From Spirochaetota bacterium (lineage in GTDB: Bacteria > Spirochaetota > Brevinematia > Brevinematales > Brevinemataceae): a stretch of DNA of 64,000 bases. The stretch is from NCBI GenBank assembly GCA_030154445.1, contig JAGUQW010000002.1:62001-126000 (forward strand), given 5' to 3'. The notes under the pieces were generated by a model. It saw only the letters and a list, made by a program, of their open reading frames with translations, made no database searches and was not told the DNA's origin. Position 1 is the first letter of the stretch. Each line of letters opens with the position of its first letter. A program made the position numbers and the translations under genes. Below, piece by piece: positions 23,114 to 42,129 of this stretch.

Positions 23114-23171
23114 TTTTTATATATTAATGTAAAGATATTTTATCAAATATCTTTACATTAATATATAAAAA
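23114..23171. repeat. Perfect 27-bp inverted repeat upstream of yajC
   Basis: Arms 23114-23140 and 23145-23171 are exact reverse complements with a 4-base loop. It lies between the yajC start and the tRNA-Gly terminator. It is AT-rich and lacks the T-run of a terminator on the minus strand. Confidence 0.95.
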
Positions 23172-23198: not shown

Positions 23199-23269
23199 AG
23201 CGGCTGGGGAGAATCGAACTCCCAGCATCAGCTTGGAAGGCTGAGGTATTACCATTATACGACAGCCGC
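23199..23269 (-). tRNA. tRNA-Gly (TCC)
   Basis: A 71-base cloverleaf is present: acceptor GCGGCTG pairs with CAGCCGC, the anticodon loop CTTCCAA has anticodon TCC, and the T-loop is GTTCGATTC. CCA is not encoded. Confidence 0.96.
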
Positions 23270-32544: not shown

Positions 32545-35500
32545 CTACTTCCCACCCTCAACAATCGTTATTTCCTCAGCACTCAATCCATAGAGAGCAT
32601 AGACAAAATCATCTACTTCATTTTGTAGGGCGTCTAGTTGTTCGTCGGCAATATCTTTAGTGATAAGCTTTTGTATTTGTTGATCTTTTATGGCTTTGGC
32701 TCTATCAAAAAGCTCTTCAGCTATTTGTAGCTGTTCCTCTGTCGGTATGATGATAGGCACTTGTCTCATATCATTAATTTGAATACTGATAGTGTTATTA
32801 ACTATTTGCTTCATATAATGAAACATAAAATATGAATTAATCATAACTAATAAATATTTACTAGTTATAATAGGATATAGAGGATATAAACTCATACTCT
32901 TAACATCATTGATTGTAGACTCTTTTATTCTAGCTTTGATAAAAGTTGATTTATCTTTTATAACTGTACTTTTAGTTAGTAAGACATCACTCCATGAAAA
33001 ACCTTCTTTAAAAAAGAAAGTATAACCTTGCCAACGAGCTTTAGGATCTGTTTTTAAGAATTTCACATTTTCTACAGACCAGTTGATACAGTAAGAAGTA
33101 GGCATATACCAACGATTACCGTCCTTGTCCCCTTTGTCATAAGGTACAAAGCTTCGCTCTCCTTTGATACCATTATCTTTTTCGTCTTGAGTGAGTGTGT
33201 TGACATCAGCGATCTCATCATCACTAATAATCTGATAGAGAAAGCCCTGACCAAAGATATCTCGTCCATGTTCTGTTTTTAATGCTAAGAATAATGCTCT
33301 TATCTCTAGTTCTGTCATTTTTGTAATATCATGAGTAGTAGCAAATTCTTTGTTGAATTTTGCTATTTTTTCTATGCGTTGTCGATAGGTACGCTCTGCG
33401 TCTTTATTACTTGCTCTTACACCTATATAAAAACCATTATTCGCTGTAGCTAGTCCTTGTCCACCATCTGTGAGTAATCCTAGTAAGGCTATATCTCCAG
33501 CTTTTAGGGTGGCTTTGTAGCTATTTAATAGATTTTTATTTTTATCAATATTGGCACTGGTTTTAATGATATCCCAATAACTTGTCATTAAACTGTGAAT
33601 AGTATCAAAGTATTTATTAGCTATAGCTAAATTATAAACATTCGGGGTAAAAAACACTTGATTAGGAGCTTCTCTATAGGTGTTTATATCTATAAGAATA
33701 TTATTTCCCTCATAGAGAATTGCTTGATTTCTATTGTCTACATAATTAAATTGATAATTATCACTAGTTGTACTACTTTTATATGCAATTACAATAATAG
33801 GCTCTACTGCAGCATGTTCAAACACATTATCTACTAATCTCATTTCTACAAGTTTTTTACTTTGTAAATATTGTCTTAATTTTTGTTTGCTTTGTAATGT
33901 TAAAAAAGTGTTAGAAGTAATATATCCTAAAATACCACCGTCTTTTAAGAATTCAAAACCTCGTAAATAAAAATAATTATAGAGATCGTCTTGAATACCA
34001 TATTCTTCTTTGTACTGACTCATCATAGTAGAGGAGATACCTTTATTAGATACATAAGGAGGATTCCCAATCACTATATCAAAACTCTCAATACCAAACA
34101 TTAACCCACTATCAAAAAAGCTACACGAAACTATCGTATTAAAAGGATCGTAATTTTTCAACTGCTCAATATGAGATTTGACATTACTGATTAGTGCTTT
34201 AACTTCAGTTTTTACCTGTTCTTTTTCTGTTAATACAGCATTATAGTAAGTGTGCATAGCTCGACTGAGTTCTGCTCTATGTGTTTTATTAAAATATAAA
34301 GGTATATCCTTAACAGATATAAGACTATTAGCCGTCATCACTTTAAATTCCAAATTGGGCAGAACTTCGAGATTGATATAATCACTATCCGTATAATAGG
34401 TGTGTTTTAATAGCTCTATCCACAATCTCAATCGGCAGATATTAACAGAGTTTGGGTTGATATCCACGCCGTATAATTGGTTTTCTATGATATGCTTTTT
34501 AGTCTCAAAAATCGCTTTTTGTATCTCTTGTCTTTCTTCTGAGATCTTGCCCTCTCTTCTCTCATAGACAAAATTATCTCCAAAACTAGACTTAATAATC
34601 AATTCATCATTTTCAATAGATACCTTAATATCTTTGTGTAACAATCCTAATTGGCTTTTGATCTTGATTAGCTCATTCAAACTAGACACCAAAAAGTGAC
34701 CACTTCCCACGGCTGGATCGATGATAGTCATATTATCTACGAGAGCTTGGGCTTTTTCTATATCTTCTTTTTTATAGAAATTCTTTTTTGCATAAGAAAT
34801 AAGCTCTTTAAAGTCTTCAAATTCCAAAGCAAATTCTTTATTAAAAATATCAATGATGCGTTTTTGCAGGACTTTTTCTGACATATACATGGTAATACTA
34901 GCAGGGGTAAAATGTGAGCCGTCCTTGTAGCCATTCAATCGCTCAAAGACAGTACCCAGTACAGAAGATTTGATTAGCGTGTTTTTATCCACACTATCGC
35001 TATCACTATTATAAGAAAAACAATTCAAAAAGCGTAGTAGGTATTCTAATAGATTTAATTCTTTTTTGGTAAAGTCTTTATCTTTATAAAGTACGCTATC
35101 AGATTTGATTTTGAGGGGTCTTTCTATATCTAAATCAGAAATACGATATTGTCTTTCAATCTCTGTTTCTTCAAATAGAGAGCTATTAAGATAAGGGATT
35201 GTATCGTATTTTTTGTCATCTGAGTGTCTTTCTGCTCTTGGTGTGGACAATATACTAAAAAACAATTTTGATAATAAATGGTAGCCTGTAATATGTTTAG
35301 AATCCAAAATATGAAAGTCGGGGTCATTACGAAAAACTTTTAGTTGAGATTCTAATATTTTTAAAAAGAGTATCCTATTTAGCCACAATATATTTAATCC
35401 CAATGCCGTCTCAAATAATTCTTCGTTCTTTTCTTTGTTGCCTATTTTTGATTCTGTTAAGTCTAGGAGGGTGTTTTGGATAGTGCTTTTAACGAGTTTA

Positions 35501-36216
35501 TTATCTTTTTCTTGTAGTCCCATGATATGAAGTAGCTCTTGATAAAATTCTCTGTTTAGTTCATTGGCGTCATTTTCTAGTGCTTGGTTTAATAATAAAG
35601 GCTTATCAAAGATTCTATAAATCAAGGTGCTATCATCGTTAAAAAGATCTATCTTTGTTATTGTAATAGTAGTCTCAATATTAAGTTCACTAATTTTTTT
35701 ATAAAAACCGTCTTTATTTTTATAATATTGTGTGAATGCATTTTTAATAGAGGATTTTTTAGTTAAATTTAGAAATTCTTTTTCTTCAAAAAGATAGAGA
35801 TATTGAAAATTAGTAATCATTATATAAGTGATTTCGTTTTGCTCTTTTTTGGACTGCTCCATATAGTAATATAGAGCTTCTTGAAAGGCTTTTTTATTCA
35901 GTTCATCGTCTGTAATCATTTCTGCATTCTTTTTTGTTTTTGTTTCTATGATTACTTTTAGTTTATTTTGATACCATATTGATAAATCTATGCTATCGTG
36001 ATCCATTTCATATTGATAATTATCTATTGATGAAAAGAGATTTTTTAGTTTTTGTTTCTGTGTTTCTTCTGTAGCTGTGTATTGTATTTTTTTGATTACC
36101 TCTATGTATAGTACTAAGCCTTTTTGAAAATTTGTTATATTTATGGTGTCAATATGATAATCAGATAATTTCTTTGATTTTAATATCTTATCAATAGTTT
36201 GTATGGTTAATGTCAT
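32545..36216 (-). CDS. Type IIG restriction-modification enzyme (fused endonuclease and N6-adenine methyltransferase)
   Basis: The 1223-residue protein combines nuclease and methyltransferase. Near the N-terminus a PD-(D/E)xK-type motif reads IDLSIWYQNKLKVIIETK (Asp77, Glu91, Lys93). The central methyltransferase has DPAVGSGHFLV (near residue 500) for SAM binding and the catalytic IGNPPYVSN (near 715) of N6-adenine enzymes. The C-terminal 300 residues include a target-recognition-like region (IQINDMRQVPIIIPTEEQL and the helix after it). No separate methylase or specificity gene is nearby, as expected for type IIG. It has its own promoter and is coupled to the pentapeptide-repeat gene. The recognition site cannot be predicted. 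Confidence 0.88.
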   Translation of the reverse strand: MTLTIQTIDKILKSKKLSDYHIDTINITNFQKGLVLYIEVIKKIQYTATEETQKQKLKNLFSSIDNYQYEMDHDSIDLSIWYQNKLKVIIETKTKKNAEMITDDELNKKAFQEALYYYMEQSKKEQNEITYIMITNFQYLYLFEEKEFLNLTKKSSIKNAFTQYYKNKDGFYKKISELNIETTITITKIDLFNDDSTLIYRIFDKPLLLNQALENDANELNREFYQELLHIMGLQEKDNKLVKSTIQNTLLDLTESKIGNKEKNEELFETALGLNILWLNRILFLKILESQLKVFRNDPDFHILDSKHITGYHLLSKLFFSILSTPRAERHSDDKKYDTIPYLNSSLFEETEIERQYRISDLDIERPLKIKSDSVLYKDKDFTKKELNLLEYLLRFLNCFSYNSDSDSVDKNTLIKSSVLGTVFERLNGYKDGSHFTPASITMYMSEKVLQKRIIDIFNKEFALEFEDFKELISYAKKNFYKKEDIEKAQALVDNMTIIDPAVGSGHFLVSSLNELIKIKSQLGLLHKDIKVSIENDELIIKSSFGDNFVYERREGKISEERQEIQKAIFETKKHIIENQLYGVDINPNSVNICRLRLWIELLKHTYYTDSDYINLEVLPNLEFKVMTANSLISVKDIPLYFNKTHRAELSRAMHTYYNAVLTEKEQVKTEVKALISNVKSHIEQLKNYDPFNTIVSCSFFDSGLMFGIESFDIVIGNPPYVSNKGISSTMMSQYKEEYGIQDDLYNYFYLRGFEFLKDGGILGYITSNTFLTLQSKQKLRQYLQSKKLVEMRLVDNVFEHAAVEPIIVIAYKSSTTSDNYQFNYVDNRNQAILYEGNNILIDINTYREAPNQVFFTPNVYNLAIANKYFDTIHSLMTSYWDIIKTSANIDKNKNLLNSYKATLKAGDIALLGLLTDGGQGLATANNGFYIGVRASNKDAERTYRQRIEKIAKFNKEFATTHDITKMTELEIRALFLALKTEHGRDIFGQGFLYQIISDDEIADVNTLTQDEKDNGIKGERSFVPYDKGDKDGNRWYMPTSYCINWSVENVKFLKTDPKARWQGYTFFFKEGFSWSDVLLTKSTVIKDKSTFIKARIKESTINDVKSMSLYPLYPIITSKYLLVMINSYFMFHYMKQIVNNTISIQINDMRQVPIIIPTEEQLQIAEELFDRAKAIKDQQIQKLITKDIADEQLDALQNEVDDFVYALYGLSAEEITIVEGGK

Positions 36217-36242
36217 TTTAAATCCTTATTTAGATCTATGTT

Positions 36243-36270
36243 ATTATACTACATAAATGAAAAATAACAA
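36243..36270 (-). promoter_or_regulatory. Promoter of the restriction-modification gene
   Basis: TTGTTA and TATAAT on the minus strand are 16 bases apart, about 27 bases before the ATG at 36216. Confidence 0.65.
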
Positions 36271-36355
36271 TATTAATATTATAAACGATTATTTCATTTT
36301 TTGTAATGAATAAAGAGAAGTATACCCTCTATATTTCACATTTAAAACGAAAAAA

Positions 36356-36387
36356 AAGCTCATCCTAAACTTAATTAAGATGAGCTT
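36356..36387 (-). terminator. Terminator after the Abi_2 remnant
   Basis: AAGCTCATC and GATGAGCTT form a stem; on the minus strand it is followed by a run of T. It lies three bases beyond the stop of the remnant. Confidence 0.85.
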
Positions 36388-36389
36388 CT

Positions 36390-36911
36390 TTATATTTGAA
36401 AATAAGATGTATTATTTACTTTTGATTGGTCAAATCCTAAATGTATATAATCAGATTTTTTTACAATATCTCGTATTACTGTTAGATGTGTATTTACTTC
36501 GATTTTTAATACTGGATTTTTTACAATTGTTTTCAAACTATCATATAATATTTGATACATTTTCGCAAAACAATTCTTCTGAAACCATGCACTATCAATT
36601 ACATTGTTTGTATTATATCGAACTGAGCGATTTGTAGGATAATATTGAGAACTTCTTGCAATAAAGTGATCCATATGTGCACTCATATTTCTAAGAGATT
36701 TAATAACATGTAGTGTTTGAGTAAGTTGTGTTTTGTTTTTTTTATTCATAAAATTTATAATATTATTTAAAATAATAATATTTTTAGGTATCTTTTTTAA
36801 ATCTAACATCCGTACTAATATTCCAAATGTAACGCAGTGTATAGCTTTCCAAATAGGAAGTTCTTTAGTTAAATATTTCTCTTTATAATGTTTTAATATT
36901 CCATAACAATT
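36390..36911 (-). pseudogene. Abi_2 (AbiD/AbiF-type) abortive-infection protein, C-terminal remnant
   Basis: The reading frame is open from 36911 but begins directly after a stop codon, and the first ATG (36809) is internal to the domain. The visible 173 codons carry the second half of Abi_2: KELPIWKAIHCVTFGIL, which corresponds to the conserved LPIW-x-x-x-E-x-x-x-FG motif, and later VIKSLRNMSAHMDHFIAR, the conserved LR-x-x-x-A-H segment. Abi_2 proteins normally have about 300 residues, so the first half is missing. It may be a decayed phage-defence gene. The normal terminator is kept. Confidence 0.72.
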
Positions 36912-36937
36912 TTAATAACTTTTTACTGATATACATT

Positions 36938-37123
36938 TTATTCTTTCATCAACTTTTCACGAATGTCGGCATCCGATCTATTAATATAGTGTTTTGCTGT
37001 AATCGAAATATCACTATGTCCGAGTAATTTTGATACTAAAATAAATGTTTCGTAATAAGAGTTGACATTTACAGTGAATTTAACAAAAGCTCTATCATTT
37101 TTTTTGTTATAGAGGTTTTCCCT
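36938..37123 (-). pseudogene. Tyrosine recombinase, C-terminal remnant
   Basis: This 61-codon fragment has no start and contains VSKLLGHSDISITAKHYINR, which is the LGH-x-x-x-x-T-x-x-Y box of tyrosine recombinases with the catalytic His and the nucleophile Tyr, followed by SDADIREKLMKE and a stop. The sequence before YYETFILVSK is not clearly recombinase and may be joined by deletion. It marks a former integrase near tRNA-Thr. Confidence 0.7.
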
Positions 37124-37127
37124 CTAT
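37109..37127. repeat. Short hairpin at the recombinase remnant
   Basis: ATAGAGG, a five-base spacer and CCTCTAT form a 7-bp inverted repeat at the upstream end of the recombinase remnant. It might be part of an old recombination site; nothing else supports this. Confidence 0.35.
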
Positions 37128-37237
37128 TTCCATTATTTCTGAAACATAGTAACATACTGCATACTCCATATAATAAATTCCCCAATTCATTACATACGCA
37201 CGGTATAAAATTATAAAAGATCTTAGTTTAGTGGATT

Positions 37238-37980
37238 TTAATCGTCTATTTCAATTGTACTATCCTTGTACACTGATAATACTTCATAAGCTACTATTTT
37301 TGTTTGTATCAGATAATTTGTTTAAAAACAATATCAAAGATTAGTTTAGTATCTTTTATTTCATATATTCTTAAATCTTGTAGGATAGGAGTATAAGAAA
37401 AAATAAAAGGACTGTCTATAGGTTGATCCCAAATTGCTATTCTAAATTCTCTTTGTTTTTGATATTTACTATGCTTAGTATCCTATTTTTTCTTACAATA
37501 AGGCGTTGTACTATAATCTTCATATTTTACAATTTGTGCACGATAATGTATCCCACACTTTCTTAAAGATTCCATAATATTAATAATCAATTGATGATTA
37601 TAAAATATTACTGTATTAGTATTAAATAGATTTAAAATTTCTATTTGTTCTGGTGGATTATCTTGATCTATTTCAAAATAAGACATACAAAAAATATGAC
37701 TAGGATCATTCCCAGATGAAAAATTTATTTCTCGGATATCTTCATTTGACAAAGATATTTTACCTACAATTGGATCTTCATAAGTAATAATAGACGAATC
37801 AGGATCTAAATAAGGTCTTAATATTATTTTATTCCCTTCATCAAAATCGCCTCTTTCAGCATCATTTTCTATTTTTTGAAAATATTGTAATGTATTACAA
37901 TATAGTTGACCGTTAATTAAATCCTCTAGATGTTTTTTTTCTCCAAATCGATAATATTCCCTATAGAATAAATCACCCAT
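37238..37980 (-). pseudogene. Uncharacterised gene broken by an in-frame amber stop and a frameshift
   Basis: From ATG 37980 the frame runs 165 codons (MGDLFYREYYRFGEKKHLED...) to TAG at 37483-37485. The same frame continues after the TAG with protein-like text (DTKHSKYQKQREFRIAIWDQ, then SPFIFSYTPILQDLRIYE) to TGA at 37309. A shifted frame then gives KIVAYEVLSVYKDSTIEIDD and a stop at 37238. I do not recognise the family. No promoter is visible; the tRNA-Thr terminator lies 28 bases upstream. Its leader GGGAAGTAGATG is shared with the 3' junction of the restriction enzyme gene. Suppression of the amber codon cannot be excluded. Confidence 0.6.
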
Positions 37981-38007
37981 CTACTTCCCCCTCTCAAAAA
38001 ACAAAAA

Positions 38008-38038
38008 AAGCAAGTATAGAAATTATCTACACTTGCTT
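38008..38038 (-). terminator. Terminator of tRNA-Thr
   Basis: AAGCAAGT-x-TAGA pairs with TCTA-x-ACTTGCTT (one mismatch) around a short loop and is followed by a T-run on the minus strand. Confidence 0.82.
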
Positions 38039-38061
38039 GAAATAAAAGAACCTAAGTTCCT

Positions 38062-38134
38062 AGCCCCCTGTGGGAATCGAACCCACGACCCTCTGATTAC
38101 AAATCAGATGCTCTACCATCTGAGCTAAAGAGGC
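38062..38134 (-). tRNA. tRNA-Thr (TGT)
   Basis: A 73-base cloverleaf is present: acceptor GCCTCTT pairs with AGGGGGC (two wobble pairs), the anticodon loop TTTGTAA has anticodon TGT, and the T-loop is GTTCGATTC. CCA is not encoded. It borders the defence and mobile-DNA scar. Confidence 0.96.
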
Positions 38135-38208: not shown

Positions 38209-38237
38209 TTGAGATAAAAATATTTATATGCTATAAT
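38209..38237 (+). promoter_or_regulatory. Promoter of the sbcD-sbcC fusion gene
   Basis: TTGAGA and TATAAT are 17 bases apart with a TG two bases before the -10; the ATG is 37 bases downstream. Confidence 0.8.
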
Positions 38238-38274
38238 AGTATGATATTAATACAATGTATTTATAAGAGGTCTT

Positions 38275-41200
38275 ATGAAAATTCTCTGTACAGCAGATTG
38301 GCATATTGGGAAAAAATTAGAATCTTTTTCTCGTCTTGAAGAACAAAAAATAATTTTAAATCAATTAGTCGAAATATCCAAACAAGAAAATTCAGATGCT
38401 GTTATTGTGGCGGGAGATTGTTTTGATACTCAAAGCCCAAATCCCGAAATGACAAAACTTTTTGTATCTACGCTTGCTCGATTAGCTCGTGGTGGGGATT
38501 GTCTTGTTCTAGTTATTGCAGGAAATCACGATAATCCTCTATTTTTGTCTACCTCGGAAGCTTTTGCTTCTCAAGTGGGAGTAGTTATCTTAGGTTATCC
38601 TAGTCAAGAACCATCTCTCGAAGAAAATAATTCAGCGTGGAAAGTAACACAAACAGCACAAGGGATGATAGAAATATTTTTCAAAAAAGCTAACAAAACA
38701 GTTCGCTTTTTAATGTCTCCTTATGCCAATGCCCAGCGTCTTAAAAAAGATCTAGGAGTGCTAGACACAGATAAAAAAGCTTGGGAGATTTTGTGTGAGG
38801 AATGGGAGAAAAATATTGCTCAAGACCCAGCAATCAAAAATATTCTCATCTCTCATAGTTATTTATTACCAGCCAAAAAAGATAGTCTTATTCAAGAGGA
38901 CGCTCCTAAGGAAGATATCGGTGAGCGTTCTATTGTGGGGACTTTAGGCGGGATTTCTTTAGATAATATCCCTCAAGGGATAGACTATGTTATTGCTGGT
39001 CATATCCATAGACCGCAGTCCTTATATAGTACCAAAACTAAGGCTTTTTATACAGGGAGTCCCTTGATTTATAGTCTTTCTGAAAGTGGGCAAGAAAAAA
39101 GTGTTTTGATCTTAAATCTTGGACGAACAGACAAAGAATACCTTCTCCCTTTTAAAAAGTTACGAGATGTTAAAGAAATTAGATTTGATAATTTTGATAC
39201 TATAGGTGAGCGATTGGAACAAGAAAAAAATAATTATCTGGTATTGATTTGGGAAGGAGATAGATATTTCACCTCAGAGGAACATCAATATTTAAGAAAT
39301 ACCCATCCTTATTTAATTCGTGTTGAATCTCGCCCTAAGATTGTTAGAGATGATAGTATTATACAAAGTATAGAAACTTTACATGAGCAAAGTACCACAG
39401 ATTTATTCATAGAATATTTTAGATCCAAACATCGAGATCTCCTGCCTCCTGAAGATTTACTCAGTGTGTTTGATGAGTGTTTACAAGAAGAATCTACGAG
39501 TAATGTCCTAACCAAAAAAAGAGGTTTTCTTCCAAAAAATCTAAAAATCAAGGGTTTTTATTCTTATAAGGAAGAAGTAGAGATTGATTTTACAGAATTA
39601 GAACAAAAAGGATTTTTCGGGATTTTTGGTAATACAGGTAGTGGCAAGTCTGCGCTCATAGAGGCAATGATCATAGCTGTCTTTTATAAAGTAGAACGAA
39701 TTGGGATTTTGGGAGCTGGTGGAAAAGGTAATTTTTCTAATTCTTATGCTATTATGAATTTGGATTCTAATGAATTGTTGATAGAATTTATTTTTGAGAT
39801 TATAGGGGTAGAAGGTGTAGAGGAATATCTCTGCCGTGTGTCTGCAACTAGAGACAAAAAAAAACATACAGAAGTAAAAAGCAAAAGAGAAGTGTTTTTA
39901 AAAGAGCAAGAGGAATGGATCCCTTCTGAGATTACCTTAGGAGAAGATATTCTGGGGATTACCTATGATGATTTCCGTAAAACAATTATCTTACAACAAA
40001 GAGATTTCTTGGGCTTTATTTCTTCTGTACCCAAAGAAAATTCAGAAACATTGATTAGATTGTTTCAATTAGAGCGATTTGATTTATACTATATTATTGA
40101 TTCTTTAGAAAAAAAAGAATATGGTGAATTCAAGACTTTAGAAGTGAAATTACAAAATTTTGAAGATACGACAGATGTGGCATTAGAAGAATTCAATATT
40201 CAAAAAACTTCTTTAGAGTCAGAAAGGGCTGTTCTTGATGAGCGTATAGAAGCTCAAAGAACTTTAGTAAATAAACTGACCCAACAATTAGAGCAACAAC
40301 AACACTCTATTCATATACAAAAAAAATTCACTAAAATGCAATTAGACGAAGAGCTATTTAATCAGGCCAGAGAACATTTGAATATTATCGATCTTGTTAA
40401 TTTAGATAGTCAGATTGCTAAAAAAGAAGAACAAAAACAACAATCAGAGCTAACTTATAAAAATTTACAAAACAAATTGATTGTAGAAAAAGAAAAATTA
40501 GGTGATATCGAACAACAAGGGATAGAATCTAAAATACAACTAGAAATAATACAAACTCAGTTCAATGACAAACAGCAAGAATGGGATGCTTTGATAATGG
40601 ATAATATCTCTGAGCAAGCAATAATTTTTGAAAATCGACAAAAAGACTACAAAAGAGTAGCACAACTATCTGAGGAATTAGCTAAAAAAATAAATAGTTT
40701 CAAAGAGAATATTGCTCAAAAAGATAAAACCCTTCAAGCGTTGACTGAATGTCAAATAGAAGAAAAAAAAATAAGAGATTTACTAGGTTTGGGCGTAGCA
40801 TTAGAATATCTACAGGATGGATGTGCTTGTCCTTTGTGTGGTTCTGAGGATCATCCTTCTCCTTATAAGGCTGGCAGTGATGGTGAATTGCAAGAGATTA
40901 GCAATCAGGTTAAAATTTTACAACAACAATATCTCAAAATTCAACAGCAGGAAGAATCTCTAAAAGAAAGTCTTCATACTCAAGAAAACAATATCAAACA
41001 ATTAAAAGATACTCTAGGAGAGTACACTAATCAAGCTCAATTCGATAAGGCTTATCAGGAGATAGTAGTTCAAAAATTAGCTCAAGAAAAACAAAAAACG
41101 ATAGTCAGAGAAGACTTACAAATAGCTAAAAATCAATACAAAAAATTAGAAACTCAAACACTCAATTATAGAGAACAATATCAAAATCAAGTTCGCTTGA

Positions 41201-42129
41201 CTGATAATATAGCAATAGAATTACGCTATACCGAAAAAGAAATTTCTCAAAAAAATCAAGAGTTAATGAGTCATAGAGAAGAAAGAATTGCCTATCTGCA
41301 AGAAAAGCAGCTAACAGAAAATAATTATAAAAAGATCAAAGAATATCCTCAAAAAACAGAACTAGAAATTAATACCTTTTTTACAGAATTTTTAATGCTT
41401 TCTGGAGAAATGAAAACAATAAAAACCTTTATTCAAGATAATGATGTAAATGTTGAAAATGAAAAAGATATTCAGCAAAATATCTTGAAAGAGTTTAGTG
41501 ATGAGCAATATAAACAATTACAAGAATTGGGATCTTTAGATAATAAAATCCATACTATTGTAGAAGGTATAGCTCAAAAACAAAAATTACAAGAAGAATA
41601 CGATAAATTAGTTTTAAGAAAAAATAATATAGAACTACTTAAAAAATTGTTTAAATATAGTGGATTTGTACACTTTATAGGACAAAAATATTTGAATAAG
41701 CTTTGTTATACGGCAAATCAACGATTCTTAAAATTTACCCAAAATCAATTTGAATTGTCTGCTCCAGATGCTTTAGATGATAAAAAGGGAAAAATTGTTG
41801 TAATTGATAGACTTGCTGGTGGGATAAAAAGAGATATGTTGACTTTATCTGGTGGACAAAGCTTTCAAGCGGCATTAGCATTAGCATTAGCATTAGCTGA
41901 TGAAAGTGGGACAGGACATCGATTTTTCTTTATTGATGAAGGTTTTGGAACTTTAGATGAGGAAAATCTCTATGTAGTTTTAGATACATTGAGAGAATTA
42001 GCAGAAGAAGAGAATAGAGTAGTCGGTATTATTTCTCATGTACAGATGATAAAAGAAGAGGTGATGGCTTGCTTGAATGTAGAATTAGACAAAAATAAAG
42101 GGACACGAGTTTCGTTAGTAGTGTCATAA
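38275..42129 (+). CDS. sbcDC: SbcD-SbcC fusion: nuclease and ATPase of the palindrome-cleaving complex
   Basis: SbcCD (bacterial Mre11-Rad50) cleaves hairpins and DNA ends. Here both subunits are one 1284-residue protein. Residues 1-400 are SbcD: Asp8-x-His10 (ADWHIG), Asp48 (AGDCFD), Asn84-His85-Asp86 (GNHD) and His243-x-His245 (GHIH). From about residue 423 SbcC follows: NLKIKGFYSYKEEVEIDF, Walker A GNTGSGKS (452-459), long coiled coils, the zinc hook CPLC at 852-855, a second coil, the LSGGQSFQAALALAL signature, and Walker B FFIDEGFGTLD (Asp1221-Glu1222). All key residues are present. SbcD and SbcC are usually separate adjacent genes. A single reading frame with no break supports a true fusion. 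Confidence 0.95.
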   Translation: MKILCTADWHIGKKLESFSRLEEQKIILNQLVEISKQENSDAVIVAGDCFDTQSPNPEMTKLFVSTLARLARGGDCLVLVIAGNHDNPLFLSTSEAFASQVGVVILGYPSQEPSLEENNSAWKVTQTAQGMIEIFFKKANKTVRFLMSPYANAQRLKKDLGVLDTDKKAWEILCEEWEKNIAQDPAIKNILISHSYLLPAKKDSLIQEDAPKEDIGERSIVGTLGGISLDNIPQGIDYVIAGHIHRPQSLYSTKTKAFYTGSPLIYSLSESGQEKSVLILNLGRTDKEYLLPFKKLRDVKEIRFDNFDTIGERLEQEKNNYLVLIWEGDRYFTSEEHQYLRNTHPYLIRVESRPKIVRDDSIIQSIETLHEQSTTDLFIEYFRSKHRDLLPPEDLLSVFDECLQEESTSNVLTKKRGFLPKNLKIKGFYSYKEEVEIDFTELEQKGFFGIFGNTGSGKSALIEAMIIAVFYKVERIGILGAGGKGNFSNSYAIMNLDSNELLIEFIFEIIGVEGVEEYLCRVSATRDKKKHTEVKSKREVFLKEQEEWIPSEITLGEDILGITYDDFRKTIILQQRDFLGFISSVPKENSETLIRLFQLERFDLYYIIDSLEKKEYGEFKTLEVKLQNFEDTTDVALEEFNIQKTSLESERAVLDERIEAQRTLVNKLTQQLEQQQHSIHIQKKFTKMQLDEELFNQAREHLNIIDLVNLDSQIAKKEEQKQQSELTYKNLQNKLIVEKEKLGDIEQQGIESKIQLEIIQTQFNDKQQEWDALIMDNISEQAIIFENRQKDYKRVAQLSEELAKKINSFKENIAQKDKTLQALTECQIEEKKIRDLLGLGVALEYLQDGCACPLCGSEDHPSPYKAGSDGELQEISNQVKILQQQYLKIQQQEESLKESLHTQENNIKQLKDTLGEYTNQAQFDKAYQEIVVQKLAQEKQKTIVREDLQIAKNQYKKLETQTLNYREQYQNQVRLTDNIAIELRYTEKEISQKNQELMSHREERIAYLQEKQLTENNYKKIKEYPQKTELEINTFFTEFLMLSGEMKTIKTFIQDNDVNVENEKDIQQNILKEFSDEQYKQLQELGSLDNKIHTIVEGIAQKQKLQEEYDKLVLRKNNIELLKKLFKYSGFVHFIGQKYLNKLCYTANQRFLKFTQNQFELSAPDALDDKKGKIVVIDRLAGGIKRDMLTLSGGQSFQAALALALALADESGTGHRFFFIDEGFGTLDEENLYVVLDTLRELAEEENRVVGIISHVQMIKEEVMACLNVELDKNKGTRVSLVVS

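Follow-up and report, generated by a model that had tools for sequence, protein, structure and literature searches.

A canonical-type SbcD-SbcC fusion kept in a single reading frame across a family of spirochaetes

A gene from a spirochaete draft genome encodes SbcD and SbcC as one polypeptide, and we think it very probable that the product is a functional single-chain Mre11-Rad50 (SbcCD) nuclease, derived from a Fusobacteria/Clostridia-type operon that was acquired by the ancestor of the family and whose two genes were then joined. We also consider it rather likely that in the whole family an obligate single-chain enzyme built from canonical genes has taken the place of two-subunit SbcCD, whereas the published view of such fusions is of divergent, virus- or plasmid-derived extras. 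The gene lies within a 64,000-nucleotide stretch of contig JAGUQW010000002.1 (the window; Table 1), part of a 1.5-Mb genome that is 95.5% complete in 18 contigs. That SbcD and SbcC share one frame of 1284 residues had been noticed in a sequence-only reading, and it is borne out by an intact open reading frame, matches to both families and orthologues in three further assemblies. Upstream of the ATG are a Shine-Dalgarno-like stretch and a promoter-like site, the latter coming from a scan in which the overall number of sites was not above that in shuffles.

Table 1. Coordinates of the fused gene, its upstream signals and its parts, given as positions in the window
Feature	Position	Strand	Basis
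Promoter-like site TTGAGA-17-TATAAT, 11/12, extended -10	38209..38237	+	Consensus match only, upstream of the ATG
AAGAGG, Shine-Dalgarno-like, shortly 5' of the ATG	38265..38270	+	Read from the sequence
Fused sbcDC gene, 1284 aa, ATG to stop	38275..42129	+	Single uninterrupted ORF of 1284 codons; TIGR00619 and TIGR00618; full-length orthologues in G001-G003
SbcD nuclease and capping domains, ~residues 1-340 (approximate limits)	38275..39294	+	TIGR00619, PF00149; invariant metal ligands in 22 SbcDs
SbcD C-terminal two-helix segment, ~residues 373-406	39391..39492	+	Aligns with the C-termini of Cetobacterium, Ilyobacter and Acetoanaerobium SbcD
Linker STSNVLTKKR, ~10 residues	39493..39522	+	Junction comparison; followed by GFLP at the former SbcC Met1 position
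SbcC N-terminal ATPase lobe, ~residues 417-604	39523..40086	+	Match to E. coli SbcC 6s6v_C; alignment
Walker A	39628-39651	+	In the SbcC N-terminal lobe; alignment
Zinc-hook motif CPLC, residues 852-855	40828..40839	+	Invariant in four fusions
SbcC C-terminal lobe	41575..42126	+	PDB match to E. coli SbcC; alignment
LSGGQ	41845-41859	+	In the SbcC C-terminal lobe
Walker B and D-loop	~41923-41958	+	In the SbcC C-terminal lobe

SbcD (Mre11) occupies the N-terminal and SbcC (Rad50) the C-terminal part of the chain, and every catalytic and structural motif was found. The NCBIfam model for SbcD, TIGR00619, matches residues 1-275 (E 2e-45; 155.6 bits, the cut-off being 77.65), and that for SbcC, TIGR00618, matches in two stretches (E 5e-51), below its strict cut-off, which only one of 14 control genomes passed. 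E. coli SbcC (6s6v_C, 2.9e-26) and SbcD (7dog/6s6v_A) are among the best matches in the PDB. The metal ligands D8, H10, D48, N84, H85, H194, H243 and H245 are invariant in an alignment of 22 SbcDs, and the Walker A motif (GSVGVGKS in the fusion of G003), Q-loop region, CPLC hook, LSGGQ signature, Walker B/D-loop and H-loop are conserved in all four fusions that we recovered. With the bacterial SbcCD of E. coli, Cetobacterium and Ilyobacter the protein shares an operon-like domain order, a nuclease domain with all metal-binding residues, a split ABC ATPase (Walker A, LSGGQ, Walker B) with a coiled coil and a CxxC zinc hook of the CPxC form, and the C-terminal helices of SbcD; it falls among bacterial SbcCD in trees built from either half or from the two combined. 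It differs in being one gene and one chain, with a linker of ~10 residues and no separate SbcC start in place of two separate subunits, and because of this single-frame architecture we class it as a fused variant of SbcCD. Conservation of the metal ligands and of the ATPase motifs speaks for an enzyme that is active and would work in the manner of SbcCD. By analogy with the Thermotoga maritima structure cited in PMC3175470, the two C-terminal helices of SbcD would be expected to contact the SbcC coiled coil at its base. A structure predicted from a two-row alignment had a mean pLDDT of 34.7, too low for use.

At the junction, the fusobacterial SbcC start MRPIRLEITGLQSF aligns with FLPKNLKIKGFYSY in the fusion, SbcC resuming at what was its second residue, and the four fusions have in common the junction motif KKRGFLPxxLKIxGFYSYK. 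The start codon of SbcC is absent at its position in all four. It is possible to imagine that the gene is fused and its products are separate, with cleavage of the linker by a protease, or a cryptic internal start, freeing SbcD and SbcC; the linker is probably exposed, and a few ATG, GTG or TTG codons do lie near the junction. But each of these codons occurs in a single species, the junction comparison gave no codon position common to the four fusions, and none of them is preceded by an evident Shine-Dalgarno-like stretch; we regard this alternative as unlikely. Since the SbcC start codon has been lost in all four fusions and no internal start is conserved, free SbcC is probably not produced by this family. 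The fused chain would be expected to remain uncleaved in cells. Among the nearest relatives in the trees, sbcD and sbcC overlap by 14 nt in Cetobacterium and abut in Ilyobacter, and the two frames overlap by 11 nt in Acetoanaerobium, stop codon not counted; from such layouts small changes could join the two genes.

Looking for the fusion in relatives, as had been suggested from the sequence, we found it full-length and in one unbroken frame in each of the three further sampled genomes of the family (G001, G002 and G003), with protein identities to the fusion of the source genome of 85%, 57% and 43-45%, respectively. It also occurs in a public record from an 'uncultured Brevinema sp.' (CAMRBT010000137.1), a 4203-bp contig that nearly coincides in place and length with that of G001 and is apparently the same. 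The fusion is under purifying selection, as judged from the comparison of the source genome with G001: dN/dS is 0.128 over the whole gene, 0.05 in the SbcD half, 0.046-0.10 in the SbcC ATPase lobes and 0.046 in the linker, the last from 14 codons only, and the coiled coil is looser than the rest at 0.23. Across the phylum, an SbcD passes the family cut-off in 113 of 296 sampled genomes, and it lies in a frame of more than 1200 aa in only four of the 113, all from the fusion's family, the remaining frames listed being 685 aa or shorter. Within this sample the fusion is confined to one spirochaete family. Two longer-than-usual spirochaete SbcD frames, of 611 and 685 aa, are far too short to be fusions, and the 611-aa case has a separate sbcC frame. 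Nine other genomes of the same order (G004-G012) yielded no canonical SbcD and at most traces of SbcC, which suggests that SbcCD has been lost from, or is absent in, the order's other families. A class-mate, G013, has sbcD and sbcC on different contigs with different neighbours, the usual operon having been broken up.

The fusion protein occurs once in its own genome, where it is the only canonical SbcD and SbcC that we found at 95.5% completeness. A second SbcD-like protein there (G000:C13, L082:3855-4874), a 344-aa frame, scores 42 bits, under the cut-off, and has no adjoining ATPase, and we do not count it as a spare SbcCD; a lone SbcD-like phosphoesterase of ~340 aa is kept in the genus beside uvrC-like and peroxiredoxin-like genes (L082, L085, L086). 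Could the fusion have been repurposed, for instance for anti-phage defence together with a neighbouring restriction-modification gene, its general role in repair being gone? An Eco57I-type restriction-methylase gene at 32545-36216 invites the idea, which we nevertheless judge very unlikely: the source genome, G002 and G003 have no neighbour of the fusion in common, and the sole canonical SbcCD has kept all its motifs. The restriction-methylase gene (1223 aa) together with a 139-aa frame and a gene for a 165-aa hypothetical protein adjoins a tRNA-Thr (38062-38134), and none of the three is among the neighbours of the fusion in G002 or G003; the region 32545-38134 is possibly a small tRNA-linked island.

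The sequence-only reading had also drawn attention to long perfect palindromes in the window as known substrates of SbcCD. The window does hold perfect inverted repeats, nine in number (arms 14-27 bp, loops no longer than 10), whereas ten shuffles yielded none; several of the nine resemble terminator hairpins. The longest have arms of 27 and 26 bp (~55-58 bp in all), too short to support the proposed link, since in E. coli cells it takes palindromes several times this length to provoke SbcCD; a tie between the repeats and the fusion is not established. The repeat with 27-bp arms (23114-23171, 4-nt loop) is AT-rich and intergenic, beside a tRNA-Gly (23199-23269). That with 26-bp arms (832-886, 3-nt loop) is found at only one place in the genome and lies inside a minus-strand frame for a TPR protein (190-1056), which is not the intergenic position of a terminator.

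As to origin, the two halves tell the same story. The fusion groups with Cetobacterium, Ilyobacter and Acetoanaerobium in the tree of the SbcD half (support 92/92), in that of the SbcC heads (99/98) and in the concatenated tree (100/99). A grouping with the class-mate G013 is rejected (p 0.016), as is a single clade of all spirochaete sequences (p ~4e-60). The shared neighbours of the two halves indicate a joint arrival of sbcD and sbcC, and acquisition of an operon followed by loss of a stop codon is the best reading of these trees. Besides spirochaetes, the outgroups are limited to E. coli and to records that are plasmid-borne or labelled as plasmid, and the branch to the fusion clade is long (1.5-2.3 changes per column), so the donor is not pinned down, and Fusobacteria and Clostridia are only the nearest of the groups sampled.

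Fused Mre11/Rad50 as such is already known. Yoshida, Claverie and Ogata reported such SbcDC fusions in 2011 from Mimivirus (R555), Bacillus phage 0305phi8-36, five bacteria and several eukaryotes, the bacterial ones including Deferribacter pDF308, a Clostridium kluyveri plasmid, Anaerostipes and Ruminococcus (PMC3175470). These are divergent, lie outside the canonical clades and are linked to plasmids and viruses as their presumed spreaders, and in cellular hosts they are additional to a normal pair, except in Deferribacter (PMC3175470). The Brevinema-type fusion resembles them in joining an N-terminal nuclease to a C-terminal ATPase and in the length of its linker, as a span of 9-12 residues was the estimate for joining the subunits in the T. 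maritima complex (PMC3175470). It differs from them in being canonical in sequence, in being the only canonical copy with no accompanying normal pair found, and in having been kept vertically across a whole family. One might still suppose that a divergent fusion of the Mimivirus R555 or Deferribacter kind was acquired ready-made, given that bacterial fusions exist and are thought to travel with viruses and plasmids (PMC3175470). We find this extremely unlikely, as both halves match the canonical SbcD and SbcC models and fall, in the trees, among the sampled SbcCD genes, together with those of Fusobacteria and Acetoanaerobium. Among the published fusions, the sequence comparison was with that of Deferribacter, for which phmmer gave no match at E <= 1 and Pfam gave PF00149 alone. 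In the phage set no match covered 80% of the query, and the sole plasmid match that did so consists of two separate genes. Two phage records that seemed to span the whole query (H31 and H43) proved to have two overlapping frames each, and viral contigs gave two distant SbcD matches only. Fused Mre11/Rad50 in general is not a new idea, though for this lineage the library searched held no paper joining Brevinema with SbcC. What is new here is a fusion that is of canonical type, the sole copy and inherited through a family.

Could an assembly or sequencing error have masked a frameshift or stop codon that keeps two normal genes apart? This is a concern with an 18-contig draft, and the sequence-only reading had placed it near residues 400-425 and could not exclude it. 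It is hardly conceivable, and for a missed stop it is excluded: the junction is unbroken in four assemblies, whose proteins are 43-85% identical, a motif is conserved across it, and the SbcC start is missing from all of them.

We return to a functional single-chain nuclease made from an acquired operon as the best explanation. A Fusobacteria/Clostridia-type sbcD-sbcC operon would have entered the ancestor of the family, as the trees suggest, and the stop codon of sbcD and the start codon of sbcC, both of them lost in the present genes, would have disappeared afterwards, joining the proteins through ~10 residues. In the complexes of E. coli and Thermotoga each subunit, nuclease and ATPase, is present twice, and the nuclease holds the base of the coiled coil with its C-terminal helices, so the tether joins parts that are already neighbours; with the two-helix segment of SbcD kept, a short tether to the first strand of SbcC should be tolerated. 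Two fused chains may dimerise through SbcD and the ATP-bound heads, their coiled coils meeting at the zinc hook, and the dimer would do what SbcCD ordinarily does, which is to bind DNA ends and to trim or nick those that are broken, blocked or closed as hairpins so that they can be repaired. The idea that fusion matters by fixing the stoichiometry at 1:1 finds little room here, the normal complex being 2:2 already; what probably changes instead is that neither SbcD nor SbcC can be made alone. The net effect is likely to be obligate co-synthesis and assembly, with no new activity.

The fusion runs counter to the published idea that fusions of this kind have a viral or plasmid origin. A single-chain complex may be practical for structural and single-molecule work. 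If our reading is true, these spirochaetes hold a natural covalent Mre11-Rad50, in which a linker of ~10 residues limits the path that SbcD can take in the switch from the resting to the cutting state, and models that move the nuclease far from the N-terminus of the ATPase can be tested against it. The family would then represent a natural experiment on the mechanics of Mre11-Rad50, in which selection has kept, in the sole copy of the enzyme, a short tether that joins nuclease to ATPase and is tolerated.
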